Source: an uncultured Porphyromonadaceae bacterium
GTDB taxonomy: Bacteria; Bacteroidota; Bacteroidia; Bacteroidales; Muribaculaceae
Reading direction: 5' to 3'
NCBI GenBank assembly: GCA_947567425.1
Contig: CANOLV010000025.1
Span: 1 to 36,554, forward strand
Length of the DNA stretch: 36,554 bases
Translations under genes and position numbers: made by a program
The notes under the pieces: generated by a model
Told to the model about the DNA's origin: nothing
The model's database searches: none
What the model saw: the letters and a program-made list of their open reading frames with translations, nothing else
Shown: piece after piece, positions 6,667-11,682 of the stretch
Layout of the letters: the number at the start of each line of letters is the position of its first letter
Numbering within the stretch: position 1 is the first letter of the stretch

Positions 6667-7440
6667 TTATCTAAGATTGCCGCGCACTCTGTCAAGATAT
6701 ATCTGCATGGCTTCCGAGTCGTGCGACTCGACTATTTGCTGCAGTTCCGATAGCTTTTGCTGTATCTTTTTGAGCTGTCCGGAAGTGTTGGGATTGAACA
6801 GAATCTCACTCAGCAGGTAGTCGTCCTCGCTCATAAGTCCGTCGGCGATGGCTTTATGTCGTTTAAACGTGGTGCCCGGAGCATCCTGATGCTTCATGCA
6901 GCTTGCGAATACGAGAGTCGACGCGAACGGTATGGACAGAGAGTAGGCTATAGTCTCGTCGTGCTGCTGAAATGTGTACTCTTCAATGTGGAGGTTGAGC
7001 TGTTGGTACAGGTCTTTGAAGAATATTTTCCCGAGATGGTCGCCCTCAGCGATTATTATGGCATTCTCCTGGCTAAGATTGCTCAGAGATGCGAATGTCG
7101 GTCCGAACATCGGGTGGGTTGACACGAACGGATGTCCGCTTTCGGCGTAGAATTCCGGCAGATGGGTTTTCACAGATGCGATGTCGCTCAGAATGCATTT
7201 GTCCGGCAGGTAGGGCATTATTTTCTGGAATGCCTGAATGGTGTATTTGACCGTGGCGGCGTTTATCACCATTTCTGGGGCAAAATCTTCAATCTCCTGC
7301 ATCGAGGAGAAGCGCCGGCAGTTGAAGGTGAACAGCAGGCGTCGAGGATCAGTGTCGAATATGGCCACCTCATGCTTTGTGGAAAGCACGTCGCAGAAAA
7401 ACGACCCCATCTTACCGGCTCCAAGTATAAGAATCTTCAT
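6667..7440 (-). CDS. tyrA: Prephenate dehydrogenase
   Basis: This protein of about 257 residues begins with a Rossmann NAD(P)-binding fold (MKILILGAGKMGSFF), followed by SDIASVKTHLPEF and HPMFGPTF, both typical of TyrA. It oxidatively decarboxylates prephenate to 4-hydroxyphenylpyruvate, the tyrosine branch. The frame is open 66 nt further upstream, but that extension overlaps the preceding gene and would precede the Rossmann strand, so the ATG at 7440 is preferred. It begins 13 nt after the DAHP synthase/chorismate mutase stop and is the last gene of the operon. No ACT domain is present, so feedback control probably acts elsewhere, e.g. through the attenuator ahead of pheA. Confidence 0.9.
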   Translation of the reverse strand: MKILILGAGKMGSFFCDVLSTKHEVAIFDTDPRRLLFTFNCRRFSSMQEIEDFAPEMVINAATVKYTIQAFQKIMPYLPDKCILSDIASVKTHLPEFYAESGHPFVSTHPMFGPTFASLSNLSQENAIIIAEGDHLGKIFFKDLYQQLNLHIEEYTFQQHDETIAYSLSIPFASTLVFASCMKHQDAPGTTFKRHKAIADGLMSEDDYLLSEILFNPNTSGQLKKIQQKLSELQQIVESHDSEAMQIYLDRVRGNLR

Positions 7441-7453
7441 CTTGTGGCGGTTT

Positions 7454-8533
7454 TTATCGGGTACGGTCGTTGAACACTTCAATCTGTTGTCGCACTGACT
7501 CCTCATGTATGGCAGACAGAACCGTGCGCATGAATTCAGGATCCATGCCCATGTCGGATGCCAGTTTCACGCGCGACTGCATGATTTCGTCGTGGCGGCC
7601 TATCTGAAGCACCGGCATGCGGTGTTCCTTCTTGTATTGGCCGATTTCGCGTGAAACGCGCATGCGCTTGTTGAGCACTTCAAGGAGTTCGTTGTCGATC
7701 TCGTCGATCTGCTGGCGCAATATCGACAGGCTTTCGGTGGTCACGGTCGAGTCGCGGTGGACAAGTGTGTTCAGGATAAAATTAAGTACGTCAGGTGTCA
7801 CCTGCTGGTCCTTGTCGCTCCATGCGCAGTCGGGTTCGCAGTGGCTTTCAATGATCAGACCGTCGAAACCCATGTCGAGCGCCTGCTGCGACAGCGGAGC
7901 CACAAGCTCGCGCTTTCCGCCGATGTGGCTTGGATCGCAGATCAGCGGCATGTCGGGAAATCTGCGTCGGAGCTCGATGGGTATGTGCCATTGGGGCAGG
8001 TTGCGGTAAAGATGCTTTCCGTAGGCGCTGAATCCCCGGTGTATGGCTCCAAGGCGTCGTACACCTGCATTGTAGATTCGCTGCAGAGCTCCGATCCAAA
8101 GTTCAAGGTCGGGATTGACGGGGTTTTTGACCAATACCGCGATGTCTTTTCCCGACTCCTTTATGGCATCGGCGATCTCCTGCATGGCAAACGGATTGGC
8201 CGATGTTCGTGCGCCGATCCAGAGTATGTCTATGCCGGCATTAAGTGCCAGTTCAACGTGCTGGCGTGTGGCCACTTCGATGGTGAGCAGCATGCCCGTC
8301 AGTTCTTTGACCTCTTTTAGCCATTCCAGACCTTCGGCTCCGACTCCTTCAAATCCGCCCGGTTTGGTGCGTGGTTTCCAGATGCCTGACCGGAATATCT
8401 TGATGCCGTTACGGCTGAGTTCGGTGGCGGTGGCGATGACCTGCTCTCTCGTCTCGGCGCTGCAGGGTCCGGCGATTATCATCGGCGAACCGATTCCGAG
8501 CGTCTCTGATATTATGGGTTTTAAATCGTTCAT
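7454..8533 (-). CDS. Bifunctional DAHP synthase / chorismate mutase (type II, C-terminal)
   Basis: This 359-residue fusion has an N-terminal class-I DAHP synthase/KDO8P-synthase-like barrel (residues 1-260: AGPCSAET at 21-28, KPRTKPGGFEGVG near 53-65, CDPSHIGGKRE near 199-209). The C-terminal AroQ chorismate mutase helices are residues 270-352 (LRQQIDEIDNELLEVLNKRM). It therefore catalyses both the entry step of the shikimate pathway and the chorismate-to-prephenate step. This gene order of mutase at the C-terminus is usual for Bacteroidetes. The gene lies 41 bp after the aminotransferase gene and 13 nt before tyrA on the minus strand. Both prephenate-using enzymes (PheA and TyrA) come from the same operon. 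Confidence 0.93.
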   Translation of the reverse strand: MNDLKPIISETLGIGSPMIIAGPCSAETREQVIATATELSRNGIKIFRSGIWKPRTKPGGFEGVGAEGLEWLKEVKELTGMLLTIEVATRQHVELALNAGIDILWIGARTSANPFAMQEIADAIKESGKDIAVLVKNPVNPDLELWIGALQRIYNAGVRRLGAIHRGFSAYGKHLYRNLPQWHIPIELRRRFPDMPLICDPSHIGGKRELVAPLSQQALDMGFDGLIIESHCEPDCAWSDKDQQVTPDVLNFILNTLVHRDSTVTTESLSILRQQIDEIDNELLEVLNKRMRVSREIGQYKKEHRMPVLQIGRHDEIMQSRVKLASDMGMDPEFMRTVLSAIHEESVRQQIEVFNDRTR

Positions 8534-8574: not shown

Positions 8575-9744
8575 TCAGAGTTGTGAGTCTATCCTATCGA
8601 AGGCTTCGTTCAGCTTCTCTTCGGTGGCGCAAAGTGATATGCGTATGTATCGGTCGCCGTTGCTGCCGAATATGAATCCGGGTGTGATGAACACCCGTGC
8701 ATTGTACAGTACTTTGTCGGCCAAAGATTCCGACGACTGTTCGTCGGCCGGTATGCGCCCCCAGAGAAACAGTCCTCGCTGTCCGGGATCAAATGTGCAG
8801 CCTAAGCGGGTCATTATCTTTTCTGCGATTTTGCGCCGTGAGGCATAGACTCCGTTCAGCTCTCTGAACCAGTCGGCGTCGGCTTCCAGGGCTTTTGCGG
8901 CGGCGAGCATCATCGGCCTGAATTGGCCGGAGTCGACATTTGACTTGACTTTGAATATCCAGTTGACGAATGTCGGGTTGCTGGCCAGCATGGCCATTCT
9001 CCATCCGGCCATGTTGTGTGATTTGCTTAAAGAGTTCAGCTCCACGGCTATCTCTTTGGCTCTGTCCACTTGCAGTATGCTCAGAGGCTTTTCGTTAAGG
9101 ATGAAGCTGTAGGGGTTGTCGTGGGCTATGACTATCCCGTGCTTTTTGCCGAAGGCCACGACTTTTTCAAATAGCTCCATCGAAGCCGGAGTGCCGGTGG
9201 GCATGTGGGGATAGTTGATCCATAGAAGTTTGATCTTATCCAGCGGTAGCGATCGTTCCATGGCGTCGAAATCGGGTATCCACCCATTCTCCTCTGTCAG
9301 GTCGTATGTGTAGATGTCGGCCTGGACAAGTCTGCTCGCCGAAGTGTATGTGGGGTAGCCAGGATTCGGCACCAGCACTCCGTCGCCGGGATTCAGGAAT
9401 GCGAGCGATATGTGGAGTATGCCCTCTTTGGATCCGATCAGGGGCTGGAGTTCGTTGGCCGGATTAAGGTCGACCCCATACCAGCGTCTGTACCATACGG
9501 CGATGGCTTTGCGCAATTCGGGGATGCCTATCCCCGGCTGATAGCTGTGGGTGTCGGGCTTGTTGATTTCAGCTACTGCCGTATCTATGACGGTGCGGTG
9601 CGGAGGTCTGTCGGGACCGCCTATGCCGAGCGATATTATGTCGGCGCCTTTAGCGTTAAGTTCGGCTATCTCCTTCAATTTTTTGGAGAAATAATATTCC
9701 TGTATGGCCGATACTCTGTCGGCGGGTGTGATGGTCTTGCTCAT
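8575..9744 (-). CDS. PLP-dependent class I/II aminotransferase, probably aromatic
   Basis: This 389-residue fold-type I aminotransferase has NPGYPTYTS (residues 127-135), NYPHMPTG (177-184; the usual NYPNNPTG is altered) and HDNPYS with the cofactor-binding Asp209. The Schiff-base Lys241 is in NSLSKSHNMAGWRM. The sequence resembles the LL-diaminopimelate/aspartate aminotransferase group. Its place between pheA and aroG/tyrA argues that it transaminates phenylpyruvate and 4-hydroxyphenylpyruvate to Phe and Tyr. It begins 3 nt after the pheA stop. Substrate preference is inferred from context. Confidence 0.85.
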   Translation of the reverse strand: MSKTITPADRVSAIQEYYFSKKLKEIAELNAKGADIISLGIGGPDRPPHRTVIDTAVAEINKPDTHSYQPGIGIPELRKAIAVWYRRWYGVDLNPANELQPLIGSKEGILHISLAFLNPGDGVLVPNPGYPTYTSASRLVQADIYTYDLTEENGWIPDFDAMERSLPLDKIKLLWINYPHMPTGTPASMELFEKVVAFGKKHGIVIAHDNPYSFILNEKPLSILQVDRAKEIAVELNSLSKSHNMAGWRMAMLASNPTFVNWIFKVKSNVDSGQFRPMMLAAAKALEADADWFRELNGVYASRRKIAEKIMTRLGCTFDPGQRGLFLWGRIPADEQSSESLADKVLYNARVFITPGFIFGSNGDRYIRISLCATEEKLNEAFDRIDSQL

Positions 9745-9747
9745 AAA

Positions 9748-10596
9748 CTATACTTCTTTTTTGCATTCGACATATTCGCCGAGGACTCTGAGTTCATTGG
9801 TCAACGGTCTGACGGCTTCGATGGATTGACGGTATCTGATATAGCTGTCGAATGTCAGGTCGGCATAGAATCTGTATTCCCATTCGCGCCCCACGATAGG
9901 CATTGACTGGATTTTCGACAGGTTGATGTCGTAAAAGGAGAGTATGGTCAGCACTTTTGACAGTGCGCCTTTGGCATGAGGCAGGGTGAATACGATCGAC
10001 GACTTGTCGACCACCTTTTCAGATGGTTTCAGCTCCGGCATGGTGGCCGGGTCGGCGAGGATAAGGAACCTTGTGAAGTTGCGCTTGTTTGTCTCGATAC
10101 TTTTTTCAAGAATGTTCAGTCCGTAGAGTTCGGCCGCATACTCGCCGCATACGGCGGCATGTCCCATGAGCCCATGCTCGGCAATCTCCTTCGCGCTTCC
10201 TGCCGTGTCAAACTTCTCGATGCGCTTCATATTTGGATATCTGAGCAGAAACTGCTCGCACTGGCGCAGGGCCATGGGGTGGGAATTGACTTCGGTCAGC
10301 TCATGGATCGACTGGCCGGGCAGGGCGGCGAGTGAATGCGATATGCGCATTTTGATTTCACCGATGATTTTGGACTGGCTGTTGCGCAGCAGTTCGTGGT
10401 TCTGCAGCAAAGCTCCGGCTATGGTGTTCTCGATGGCCATTATGCCTAACAGCGCCGGGTCGGAATCCAGTGTCTCGAACATTTCCTGAAACGAATCACA
10501 GGGAATTGTCTTAATGTCTTCGCCGGAGAAGTAGAGCCTTGCCGCCGCATCGTGGTAGCATCCGGCCACGCCTTGTATCGTAACGCGCTTATCCAT
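9748..10596 (-). CDS. pheA: Prephenate dehydratase with ACT domain
   Basis: This 282-residue protein joins a prephenate dehydratase domain (about 3-180, with IENTIAGALLQNHELL, the TEVNSHPMAL region and the conserved TRF at 175-177) to a C-terminal ACT domain (about 199-275). It converts prephenate to phenylpyruvate. In the ACT domain the usual GALxxxL loop is present (GALSKVL, 210-216). The phenylalanine-binding ESRP motif, however, reads QSMP (230-233), which may mean altered or weaker allosteric inhibition. It is the first structural gene of the aromatic operon and lies 129 nt downstream of the leader peptide start codon side of the attenuator (the leader stop is at 10726). It uses the ATG at 10596. 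Confidence 0.93.
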   Translation of the reverse strand: MDKRVTIQGVAGCYHDAAARLYFSGEDIKTIPCDSFQEMFETLDSDPALLGIMAIENTIAGALLQNHELLRNSQSKIIGEIKMRISHSLAALPGQSIHELTEVNSHPMALRQCEQFLLRYPNMKRIEKFDTAGSAKEIAEHGLMGHAAVCGEYAAELYGLNILEKSIETNKRNFTRFLILADPATMPELKPSEKVVDKSSIVFTLPHAKGALSKVLTILSFYDINLSKIQSMPIVGREWEYRFYADLTFDSYIRYRQSIEAVRPLTNELRVLGEYVECKKEV

Positions 10597-10643
10597 TTGT
10601 CATATATATTTATGTATGATTGTAGATTAAACTATTTGTTAAA

Positions 10644-10679
10644 AGAAATCCCGCTGCCATTGCCGGAAGCGGGATTTCT
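10644..10679 (-). terminator. Attenuator terminator hairpin in the pheA leader
   Basis: Read on the minus strand, a perfect 12-bp stem pairs AGAAATCCCGCT (10679-10668) with AGCGGGATTTCT (10655-10644) around a 12-nt loop, and TTTAAC follows directly. The T-rich run occurs only on the minus-strand side, so it terminates transcription coming from the leader promoter, upstream of pheA. Its 5' arm overlaps the partner of the antiterminator. Confidence 0.85.
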
Positions 10680-10727
10680 GAATATCGTTGTCAGTTTGTC
10701 AAACTTTTACACATAAAGTCCCGCTTC
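10666..10727 (-). promoter_or_regulatory. Antiterminator: alternative pairing in the pheA leader
   Basis: On the minus-strand transcript GAAGCGGGA (10727-10719) is perfectly complementary to TCCCGCTTC (10674-10666). Forming this 9-bp helix consumes the 5' arm of the terminator (10668-10679), so the two structures exclude each other. The first strand begins inside the leader peptide's stop codon, so a ribosome that reaches the stop masks it. The loop contains a small hairpin of its own (AGTTT/AAACT, 10693-10705). Confidence 0.82.
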
Positions 10728-10779
10728 AATCTCTTGCGAAATAAAAGTAAGAAAAATAATATGCGTAAAATCGTGTCAT
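10726..10779 (-). CDS. Aromatic leader peptide (Phe/Tyr attenuation)
   Basis: A 17-codon frame reads MTRFYAYYFSYFYFARD and stops at TGA 10728-10726. Nine of 17 residues are aromatic: Phe at 4, 9, 12 and 14, and Tyr at 5, 7, 8, 11 and 13. It starts about 20 nt after the predicted transcription start, precedes the antiterminator and terminator, and lies upstream of a phenylalanine/tyrosine operon. That arrangement is exactly the E. coli pheL logic. Expected behaviour is inferred: when charged tRNA-Phe or tRNA-Tyr is scarce the ribosome stalls within the run, 10719-10727 stays free, the antiterminator forms and the operon is read. When charged tRNA is plentiful the ribosome reaches the stop and the terminator forms. 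The peptide itself probably has no function. Confidence 0.85.
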   Translation of the reverse strand: MTRFYAYYFSYFYFARD

Positions 10780-10806
10780 TGACTGTCCGTTTTTATATCT
10801 ATGCCA

Positions 10807-10838
10807 CAAAATTAATCTATTTGTTTTGTAACTCCAAC
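10807..10838 (-). promoter_or_regulatory. Promoter of the aromatic operon leader
   Basis: On the minus strand GTTG (10838-10835) and TAATTTTG (10814-10807, a full TAnnTTTG match) are separated by 20 nt. Transcription would start near 10800, about 20 nt before the leader peptide ATG at 10779. Confidence 0.7.
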
Positions 10839-10852
10839 TTTTTTGTCGATTA

Positions 10853-10886
10853 TTTGCGAAAATCCTAATATTTTATTTTATATTTG
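10853..10886 (+). promoter_or_regulatory. Promoter of the PD-(D/E)XK-like gene
   Basis: TTTG at 10853-10856 and TATATTTG at 10879-10886 are spaced by 22 nt. The -33 elements of this promoter and of the divergent aromatic operon promoter lie only 14 bp apart. The ATG at 10912 follows the expected start site by about 19 nt. Confidence 0.6.
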
Positions 10887-10911
10887 CGTTATGCACAATT
10901 AATTACCTTAC

Positions 10912-11682
10912 ATGAATCCTAAATTTAGAGCGATGAGTAAAATGACCATAAGCGGCGACAGCTATATGATTAATAGTAAGAAGGTGTTCCGTGGAATCGG
11001 CATTGACGATTCTGACATCGAGAAAGTGGCTGACTTTGCCTATAAGATGTGTTTCGGCGAGGGGCATCACCGCAATCATCGCACCGGAGGTACGTTGGAA
11101 AGGGGAGCCGCGGAAAAGTTCTGCAATACGTTTCAGGGTAAATTGGCGGAGATATGTCTGTTGAGAGCGTTCAGCGCCGCCGGACTTGAGTGTGCCGAGC
11201 CCAATTTTGACATTTACGGAGAGGGCATATGGGATGATACGGACCTGGTGGTGGCCGGAAAGACGGTCAGCGTCAAATCCGCGGCATACTTTTCCAACCT
11301 TCTTCTGCTTGAATGCGCCGATTATGACGACAGTGGAAATTACTTGCCGAATCTTGTCGCGGGAGGCACGGCCTCTTACGATTATTATGTATTGGTAAGG
11401 ATATCGCCTGACATAAAAAGTATCTTCAAAAGGGAGAGAATGATGTGGCTCGACAATATTTCGCGCGAGGATGTTATGAGAGTCATTAATTCCGAGGACT
11501 GGAAGTATGATGTCGGGGGATGTATCAATCACCGGATGCTGGTGGATATGATCAGATGTAAATACATTATACCGAAGGACGCTCTGTTAAACGGAAGTAC
11601 CCGGATGGATGCCGCGAACTATTATGTGCAGGCTGGTGATATGGCAGGCTTGGAAAAGTTGATCGAGGCGCTTCGCCGATAA
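10912..11682 (+). CDS. Putative PD-(D/E)XK-fold nuclease (restriction-endonuclease-like), orphan
   Basis: This 256-residue protein of uncertain family has a central segment that looks like a restriction-endonuclease core. A helix carries Glu80 (QGKLAEICLLRAF), followed by Asp111 in WDDTDLVVAG and a strand ending TVSVKSAAYF with Lys122. This gives E...D...(S)XK, with the usual second acidic residue replaced by Ser120. The rest shows no known motif. No DNA methyltransferase is adjacent: the neighbours are the aromatic operon (divergent) and rpsP. It could be a solitary nuclease, a defence effector or a repair enzyme. ATGs at codons 8 and 11 are alternatives, but 10912 fits the promoter. The call rests on motif spacing only. 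Confidence 0.5.
   Translation: MNPKFRAMSKMTISGDSYMINSKKVFRGIGIDDSDIEKVADFAYKMCFGEGHHRNHRTGGTLERGAAEKFCNTFQGKLAEICLLRAFSAAGLECAEPNFDIYGEGIWDDTDLVVAGKTVSVKSAAYFSNLLLLECADYDDSGNYLPNLVAGGTASYDYYVLVRISPDIKSIFKRERMMWLDNISREDVMRVINSEDWKYDVGGCINHRMLVDMIRCKYIIPKDALLNGSTRMDAANYYVQAGDMAGLEKLIEALRR

Follow-up and report, generated by a model that had tools for sequence, protein, structure and literature searches.

The minus strand of the window, i.e. the whole 36,554-nucleotide stretch of DNA analysed here, carries ahead of pheA an element that, judging from its sequence and modelled folding, is very probably a ribosome-mediated transcription attenuator of the trpL/pheL type governing a four-gene operon for phenylalanine and tyrosine synthesis. 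The original prediction had placed a leader peptide, promoter boxes, an antiterminator and a terminator before pheA, and every one of these elements is present in the sequence where it was placed. The features of the leader and of the operon behind it are as follows.

10807..10838, minus: promoter, with GTTGG at 10838-10834, a 19-nt spacer and a -7-like box, TAATTTTG, at 10814-10807
10726..10779, minus: leader peptide ORF, MTRFYAYYFSYFYFARD, 17 codons, ATG to TGA, with 4 Phe and 5 Tyr
10760..10770, minus: strand 1, TTTTACGCATA, leader codons 4-7, forming 11 bp with strand 2b in the minimum free energy (MFE) fold
10719..10727, minus: strand 2a, GAAGCGGGA, the first antiterminator strand, starting inside the leader stop codon
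10705..10715, minus: strand 2b, TATGTGTAAAA, the 3' partner of strand 1
10666..10679, minus: strand 3, of which TCCCGCTTC (10674-10666) pairs with 2a and AGAAATCCCGCT (10679-10668) is the terminator 5' arm
10641..10655, minus: strand 4, of which AGCGGGATTTCT (10655-10644) is the terminator 3' arm, plus a short U-tract
9748..10596, minus: pheA, prephenate dehydratase, first gene of the operon (PF00800, 2.7e-52; PRK11899, 3.2e-56, below the curated cut-off)
8575..9744, minus: class I/II PLP aminotransferase (PF00155, 9e-56)
7454..8533, minus: DAHP synthase with a C-terminal chorismate mutase, 359 aa (PF00793, residues 13-259; PF01817, residues 272-350)
6667..7506, minus: tyrA, prephenate dehydrogenase (PF02153, 1.3e-08; PRK11199, 2.5e-15, residues 21-266, below the curated cut-off)

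Anatomy of the leader and its operon

The leader reads ATG ACA CGA TTT TAC GCA TAT TAT TTT TCT TAC TTT TAT TTC GCA AGA GAT TGA, so that nine of its 17 codons specify Phe or Tyr, and it is probably translated by ribosomes. When the 420 bp before pheA, which starts at 10596, were shuffled with dinucleotide content preserved, none of 5000 shuffles gave an ATG-started short ORF of equal aromatic density. Were an in-frame TTG (10809) used as the start, the ORF would have 27 residues, but this codon sits within the promoter. No tandem repeat was found beneath the aromatic run, and a pattern search with the run alone was uninformative, the genome having 18 matches to TAYTTYTAYTTY and 25 to the reversed control. 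The promoter belongs to the TAnnTTTG type of Bacteroidota, outside the reach of a sigma-70-type consensus scan; such a scan of 10500-10950 returned no sigma-70-type promoter and no terminator-like site. TAnnTTTG is given as the sigma-A -7 box in a passage of PMC9723704, and 64 of 106 leaders have it no more than 60 nt ahead of their ATG, as against 476 of 10600 shuffles.

Folding of the 170-nt leader RNA gives -46.2 kcal/mol (z = -5.39), none of 200 shuffles being equally stable. In the MFE fold the terminator is a 12-bp stem between the leader ORF and pheA; it contains an interior mismatch, and the U-tract behind it is short (UUUCUUUU, then AAC). The antiterminator and the terminator are mutually exclusive, strand 3 (10679-10666) being common to both. 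The same fold adds an 11-bp helix, 1:2b (10770-10760 with 10715-10705), which was absent from the original prediction. Classical attenuators have alternative 1:2, 2:3 and 3:4 helices, and 1:2b corresponds to the first of these; its omission matters because the helix bears on the untranslated state. The pheL/trpL architecture originally proposed is upheld by a conserved frame, co-varying helices and ribosome-sized spacing, whereas the two-helix picture lacked one helix.

No Rfam family reached its gathering threshold in the window or in 16 relatives' loci, so surveys based on Rfam would miss these leaders. Below threshold there were only unrelated families, the best being RsaJ on the other strand (E 0.0085, 20.1 of 100 bits). 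A T-box riboswitch was considered and rejected, the T-box covariance model giving no match.

The operon comprises four genes separated by intergenic gaps of 3 and 41 bases, with one overlap. All the activities attributed to it beforehand, i.e. DAHP synthase, chorismate mutase, PheA, TyrA and an aminotransferase, are encoded within it, although the first two reside in one 359-residue fusion protein. Of the fetched loci, 130 exceed 1.5 kb and have a pheA match; within flanks of at most 1.5 kb, an aminotransferase homologue lies downstream of pheA on the same strand in 111, 30 of which also have DAHP synthase; DAHP synthase alone is found in 16 and neither gene in three. The upstream neighbour is a divergent 256-aa ORF at 10912-11682 (+) with no Pfam or NCBIfam match, whose protein has 60% identity over 175 aa to a stretch of one relative's locus (L003).

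Conservation, co-variation and spacing

Of 61 genomes, counting that of the window, 40 have a pheA homologue, as do 337 of 392 in a sample of the phylum. The 136 upstream regions that were compared comprise 29 of the 30 loci of the first search, 29 new loci from the phylum and 78 of 80 further stretches; the class and phylum regions came mostly from the top of the match list rather than at random, and cover a minority of the phylum's matching genomes. With an aromatic leader defined as an ORF having at least 7 Phe, Tyr or Trp in 15 residues, leaders are found in 107 of the 136 regions, as against 2/136 on the reverse strand and 94/2720 in shuffled sequence. The corresponding figures for at least 9 such residues in 15 are 73/136, 0/136 and 3/2720. 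Conservation in related genomes, on which the original prediction had staked itself, is evident in the window's class, where the aromatic frame precedes pheA in 101 of 107 regions; in other classes of the phylum it does so in 6 of 29.

Five of the same-class regions yielded no leader (L026, L053, L059, L061 and L082), and the sixth miss, L022, has only 133 bp upstream before the contig ends. Four of these regions (L053, L059, L061 and L082) belong to one family, f35, of which six regions were examined, and by eye pheA there lies close behind another ORF. It may be, since pheA in this family so closely follows another ORF, that control is exerted further upstream or has been lost. The six leaders from outside the window's class are those of L038, L046, L049, L118, L119 and L121. 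One genome of family f42 (G126) has a pheA closer to that of the window (8.6e-60) than have the other listed genomes of that family (about 1e-36 to 1e-44). It is possible that operon and leader were transferred together into other classes.

A collection of named organisms, its 80 loci being the best of more than 580 matches and overlapping partly with the other set, such that it is not independent, has the leader in 66 of the 78 loci with at least 180 bp upstream and lacks it in 12. Carriers include Bacteroides fragilis S82, B. xylanisolvens XB1A, B. nordii, B. finegoldii, Parabacteroides and Alistipes. Metagenome-assembled genomes of Muribaculaceae account for many of the top matches in this collection, and the window probably belongs to that family. 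Within the genus, ten leaders including that of the window were compared, with L005, whose leader differs, omitted. Up to codon 14 the variable columns are six third positions, two second positions and no first position, and the aromatic codons vary only as TAT/TAC, TTT/TTC or between Phe and Tyr.

For the analysis of pairing, terminators were located from their own hairpin energy and T-tail, with strand 2a ignored, in 106 of the 107 leaders, L011 being missed by the script. In a swap test, the duplex energy of each leader's own strands was then compared with the mean for strands exchanged from other families. Own pairing beats the mean swap for 3:4 in all 106 leaders and all 25 families (best 5% in 77/106), and for 2a:3 in 102 leaders and 23 families (best 5% in 62/106). 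The view that two helices compete for the same bases is thus borne out, both passing the test with strand 3 in common, and the covariation check that had been proposed finds strands changing together between families. The pairing core itself varies by lineage (GCGGGA, GCCGGG, CAGGAT, GAGGCT and others). An exact 6-mer with at least three G/C is common to the 2a stretch and the leader's own strand 4 in 61 of 106 leaders, as against a mean fraction of 0.198 with other families' strands.

For 1:2b, own pairing beats the mean swap in 84/106 leaders and 20/25 families (best 5% in 33/106). The mean z in the window's family is -2.76 (24 leaders), and the signal is weak or absent in several other families; the helix is thus less certain outside the window's family. 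When 1:2b was tested with ungapped 11-mers the signal was weak (mean 9.17 versus 8.36 pairs; at least 10 pairs in 15/46 versus 7.9% of shuffles), and that test was not relied on, the duplex test being preferred because the partner strand is often interrupted.

Counting from the first base of the final aromatic codon, 2a begins 9-16 nt downstream (median 12) in 92 of 106 leaders. By contrast ORF length varies from 15 to 40 residues, and the start of 2a ranges from -35 to +4 relative to the ORF end. The distance to the run being nearly constant and that to the ORF end variable, 2a appears to be positioned by reference to the aromatic run and the ribosome rather than to the stop codon; the spacing of about 12 nt would be the edge of a stalled ribosome. 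The proposal that 2a begins within the leader stop codon is correct for the window and also fits several congeners; as a general rule it fails, 2a starting ahead of the stop codon in 83 of 106 leaders.

Predicted states of the proposed switch and the amino acids it may read

In the mechanism envisaged for the window, RNA polymerase would start near 10802 and a ribosome would translate the 17-codon leader. Were charged tRNA-Phe or tRNA-Tyr scarce, the ribosome would stall in codons 4-14, on or beside strand 1, leaving 2a free to capture strand 3 before strand 4 exists, so that the terminator would be blocked and the operon transcribed. With both charged tRNAs ample, the ribosome would reach the stop codon and hide 2a, enabling 3:4 to form and transcription to stop near 10641. 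In an untranslated leader, helix 1:2b would withhold 2a from strand 3, giving termination by default, a prediction that applies to the window and about half of its family rather than to the whole phylum.

These states were modelled as a snapshot in which strand 3 has been made and strand 4 has not, the leading edge of the ribosome being set 13 nt from the start of the A-site codon and P(2a:3) being the mean over the best six consecutive pairs. For the window, P(2a:3) is 1.0 for every A-site codon from 2 to 14 and still 0.99 at codon 15, then falls sharply to 0.17 at codon 16, 0.02 at codon 17 and 0.01 at the stop; with no ribosome it is 0.12. Across the set, P(2a:3) exceeds 0.5 in 105 of 106 leaders stalled at the first aromatic codon and in 104 of 106 at the last, for which the leading edge was set to 10 nt; it still does so in 23/106 when 2a is nominally covered and in 74/106 with no ribosome. 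A stall raises P(2a:3) by more than 0.2 above the ribosome-free state in only 37/106 leaders, 14 of the 24 in the window's family among them, and the ribosome-free median in that family is 0.17. The starved and replete states are thus predicted broadly, and termination in the untranslated state is predicted for only some of the leaders; as 74 of 106 leaders form 2a:3 in the model with no ribosome, the untranslated state probably differs between lineages.

Equilibrium folding of the window's leader with ribosome masks has the terminator winning at every ribosome position (P 0.97-0.98), and therefore the switch would have to be kinetic. The same dominance of the terminator in all states is what would be expected of a plain terminator free of translational control, marking the end of an upstream unit or damping expression constitutively, with the aromatic ORF a T-rich by-product. 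That this is the whole explanation is scarcely credible. The upstream neighbour at 10912-11682 (+), its protein conserved in L003, is divergent, so that nothing upstream needs terminating; moreover, changes in the leader frame are mostly at third positions, the spacing of 2a is of ribosome size, and composition-matched shuffles do not yield the ORF. A rather different proposal is a TnaC-like arrest peptide, in which the nascent aromatic peptide together with a free amino acid ligand, and not tRNA charging, would stall the ribosome. In the window's family the N-terminal stretch MTRFYAYY shows good conservation, as an arrest peptide might, but this part of the leader doubles as strand 1 of 1:2b and its conservation can be explained at the RNA level: MTRFYAYY is probably the best-conserved part of the peptide because codons 4-7 form that strand. 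Elsewhere composition is kept and sequence is not, Phe and Tyr swapping at most run positions and Trp entering in 32 of 106 leaders; such free exchange along the run fits codon reading rather than an arrest peptide, which is accordingly a very improbable explanation.

If the element is an attenuator reading codons, there is then the matter of which codons are read. The 106 leaders contain 521 Phe, 437 Tyr and 33 Trp among 2454 residues, and suggest that Tyr is sensed as well as Phe, a suggestion put no more strongly because a Phe-Tyr-Phe leader in Corynebacterium glutamicum answers to Phe alone. It could be that the same attenuator senses Phe only, the Tyr codons reflecting a shared A/T-richness or merely slowing the ribosome. 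In line with this, Phe is the commonest residue at the last position of the run (75/106), and the C. glutamicum AroR leader responds to Phe and not to Tyr in the passages of PMC11802643 that concern it. Yet Tyr equals Phe at position -1 (51 leaders each) and exceeds it at position -3 (72 versus 30), the overall Tyr and Phe counts are of similar order, 105 of 106 leaders have both residues, and the operon makes both amino acids, such that sensing of Phe only is considered unlikely, and dual sensing is preferred. Trp occurs within the main run of 32 of the 106 leaders, in none of the 24 of the window's family and in 17 of 27 of family f31. Runs with Trp, all outside the window's family, include those of L040, L041, L044, L047, L048 and L058. 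Leaders of this type may possibly act as sensors of all three aromatic amino acids.

Related leaders and known systems

Two further operons of the same genome have leaders of comparable appearance. That of hisG (G000:C5, L148) encodes MKISTLSHHHHHHHHQSTTGGDDGMCV, with eight consecutive His codons and a terminator-like GC-rich hairpin; that of ilvD (G000:C27, L265) encodes the Ile/Val/Leu-rich MPTYAIMIISHLNVVITVLPQPGA, with complementary strands CCGGGAGC and GCTCCCGG. In both a GC-rich hairpin follows the leader, and by eye its 5' arm could also pair with a strand in the leader. Among relatives a His-rich leader lies close before hisG in 11 of 20 loci, with a twelfth (L157) distant, and within about 330 bp in 10 of 19 loci as against 13 of 950 shuffles; an Ile/Val/Leu-rich leader precedes ilvD in 11 of the 13 loci scanned, out of 14, as against 13 of 650 shuffles. 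Leaders with Trp runs (WWW or WW) and hairpins were seen by eye, with no chance control, near trpE in 6 of 14 relatives' loci (L162, L163, L164, L166, L167 and L170). A search of the window's own assembly for the TrpE family gave no match, and no convincing Thr leader was found before the 10 aspartokinase loci scanned.

A broader reading, somewhat favoured here, is that ribosome-mediated attenuation is an ancestral and general form of amino-acid control in Bacteroidia rather than a mainly gamma-proteobacterial one. The pheA leader would then be a two-tRNA OR-gate acting on the entry step of the shikimate pathway, which is common to both products, and on the Phe and Tyr branches themselves, with Trp as a third input in many leaders outside the window's family, and would stand beside the like His, Ile/Val/Leu and Trp leaders. 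Bacteroidia are prominent in the animal gut, and if the leaders work as they look, many of these bacteria would control the synthesis of aromatic and other amino acids through leader translation. The leaders would in that case offer a simple way to read out amino-acid supply in such bacteria, and could form the basis of an Rfam family.

The literature search, most subscription journals and supplements being outside its scope, yielded no paper that was recognised as describing a pheA leader in Bacteroidales. A 2010 comparative study by Lopatovskaya and colleagues, cited in PMC4833913, may already include attenuators from Bacteroidetes and could then have priority. The survey PMC3766115, in its available passages, places amino-acid attenuators mainly in gamma-proteobacteria; PMC1262725 and PMC4833913 are, from the parts available, an Actinobacteria survey and a leader-gene study, respectively. 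The original description of such attenuation as little documented in Bacteroidetes is fair, although hints exist in passages of PMC9723704 and PMC7366714. The former reports strong clues for leader-peptide attenuation of amino-acid operons in Flavobacterium psychrophilum, and a structured element upstream of pheA. The F. psychrophilum pheA and hisG 5' elements resemble that of the window in phylum, in gene and in having no Rfam hit, and appear to be identical in kind; the likeness is one of description, the passages stating conservation for Flavobacteriaceae and giving no leader sequence, strands or amino acids. In PMC7366714 leader-peptide-like sORFs are described in B. thetaiotaomicron, the example being BT_4401, not pheA, and its passages give no worked-out mechanism.

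The C. glutamicum AroR leader, as presented in the available text of the review PMC11802643, lies before aroF, which encodes DAHP synthase, has Phe-Tyr-Phe, and is unaffected by Tyr. It thus resembles the window's element in being an aromatic leader ahead of a DAHP synthase operon. It differs in coming from an Actinobacterium and in that only Phe-Tyr-Phe is mentioned, the likeness being one of leader and gene.

The closest parallels are the E. coli pheL-pheA and trpL-trpEDCBA systems, the trpL and pheL leaders of which govern trpEDCBA and pheA according to the same passages of PMC11802643; as in the window, a short leader of cognate codons is followed by a terminator before the first structural gene. 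By contrast with these, the window's leader mixes Phe and Tyr codons within one peptide, would control both branches as well as the committed DAHP synthase step, and has no Rfam match, and strand 2 in its relatives often lies inside the leader ORF (83/106). The mechanism is thus of a known kind; what is remarkable is its class-wide reach and its mixed aromatic codons.
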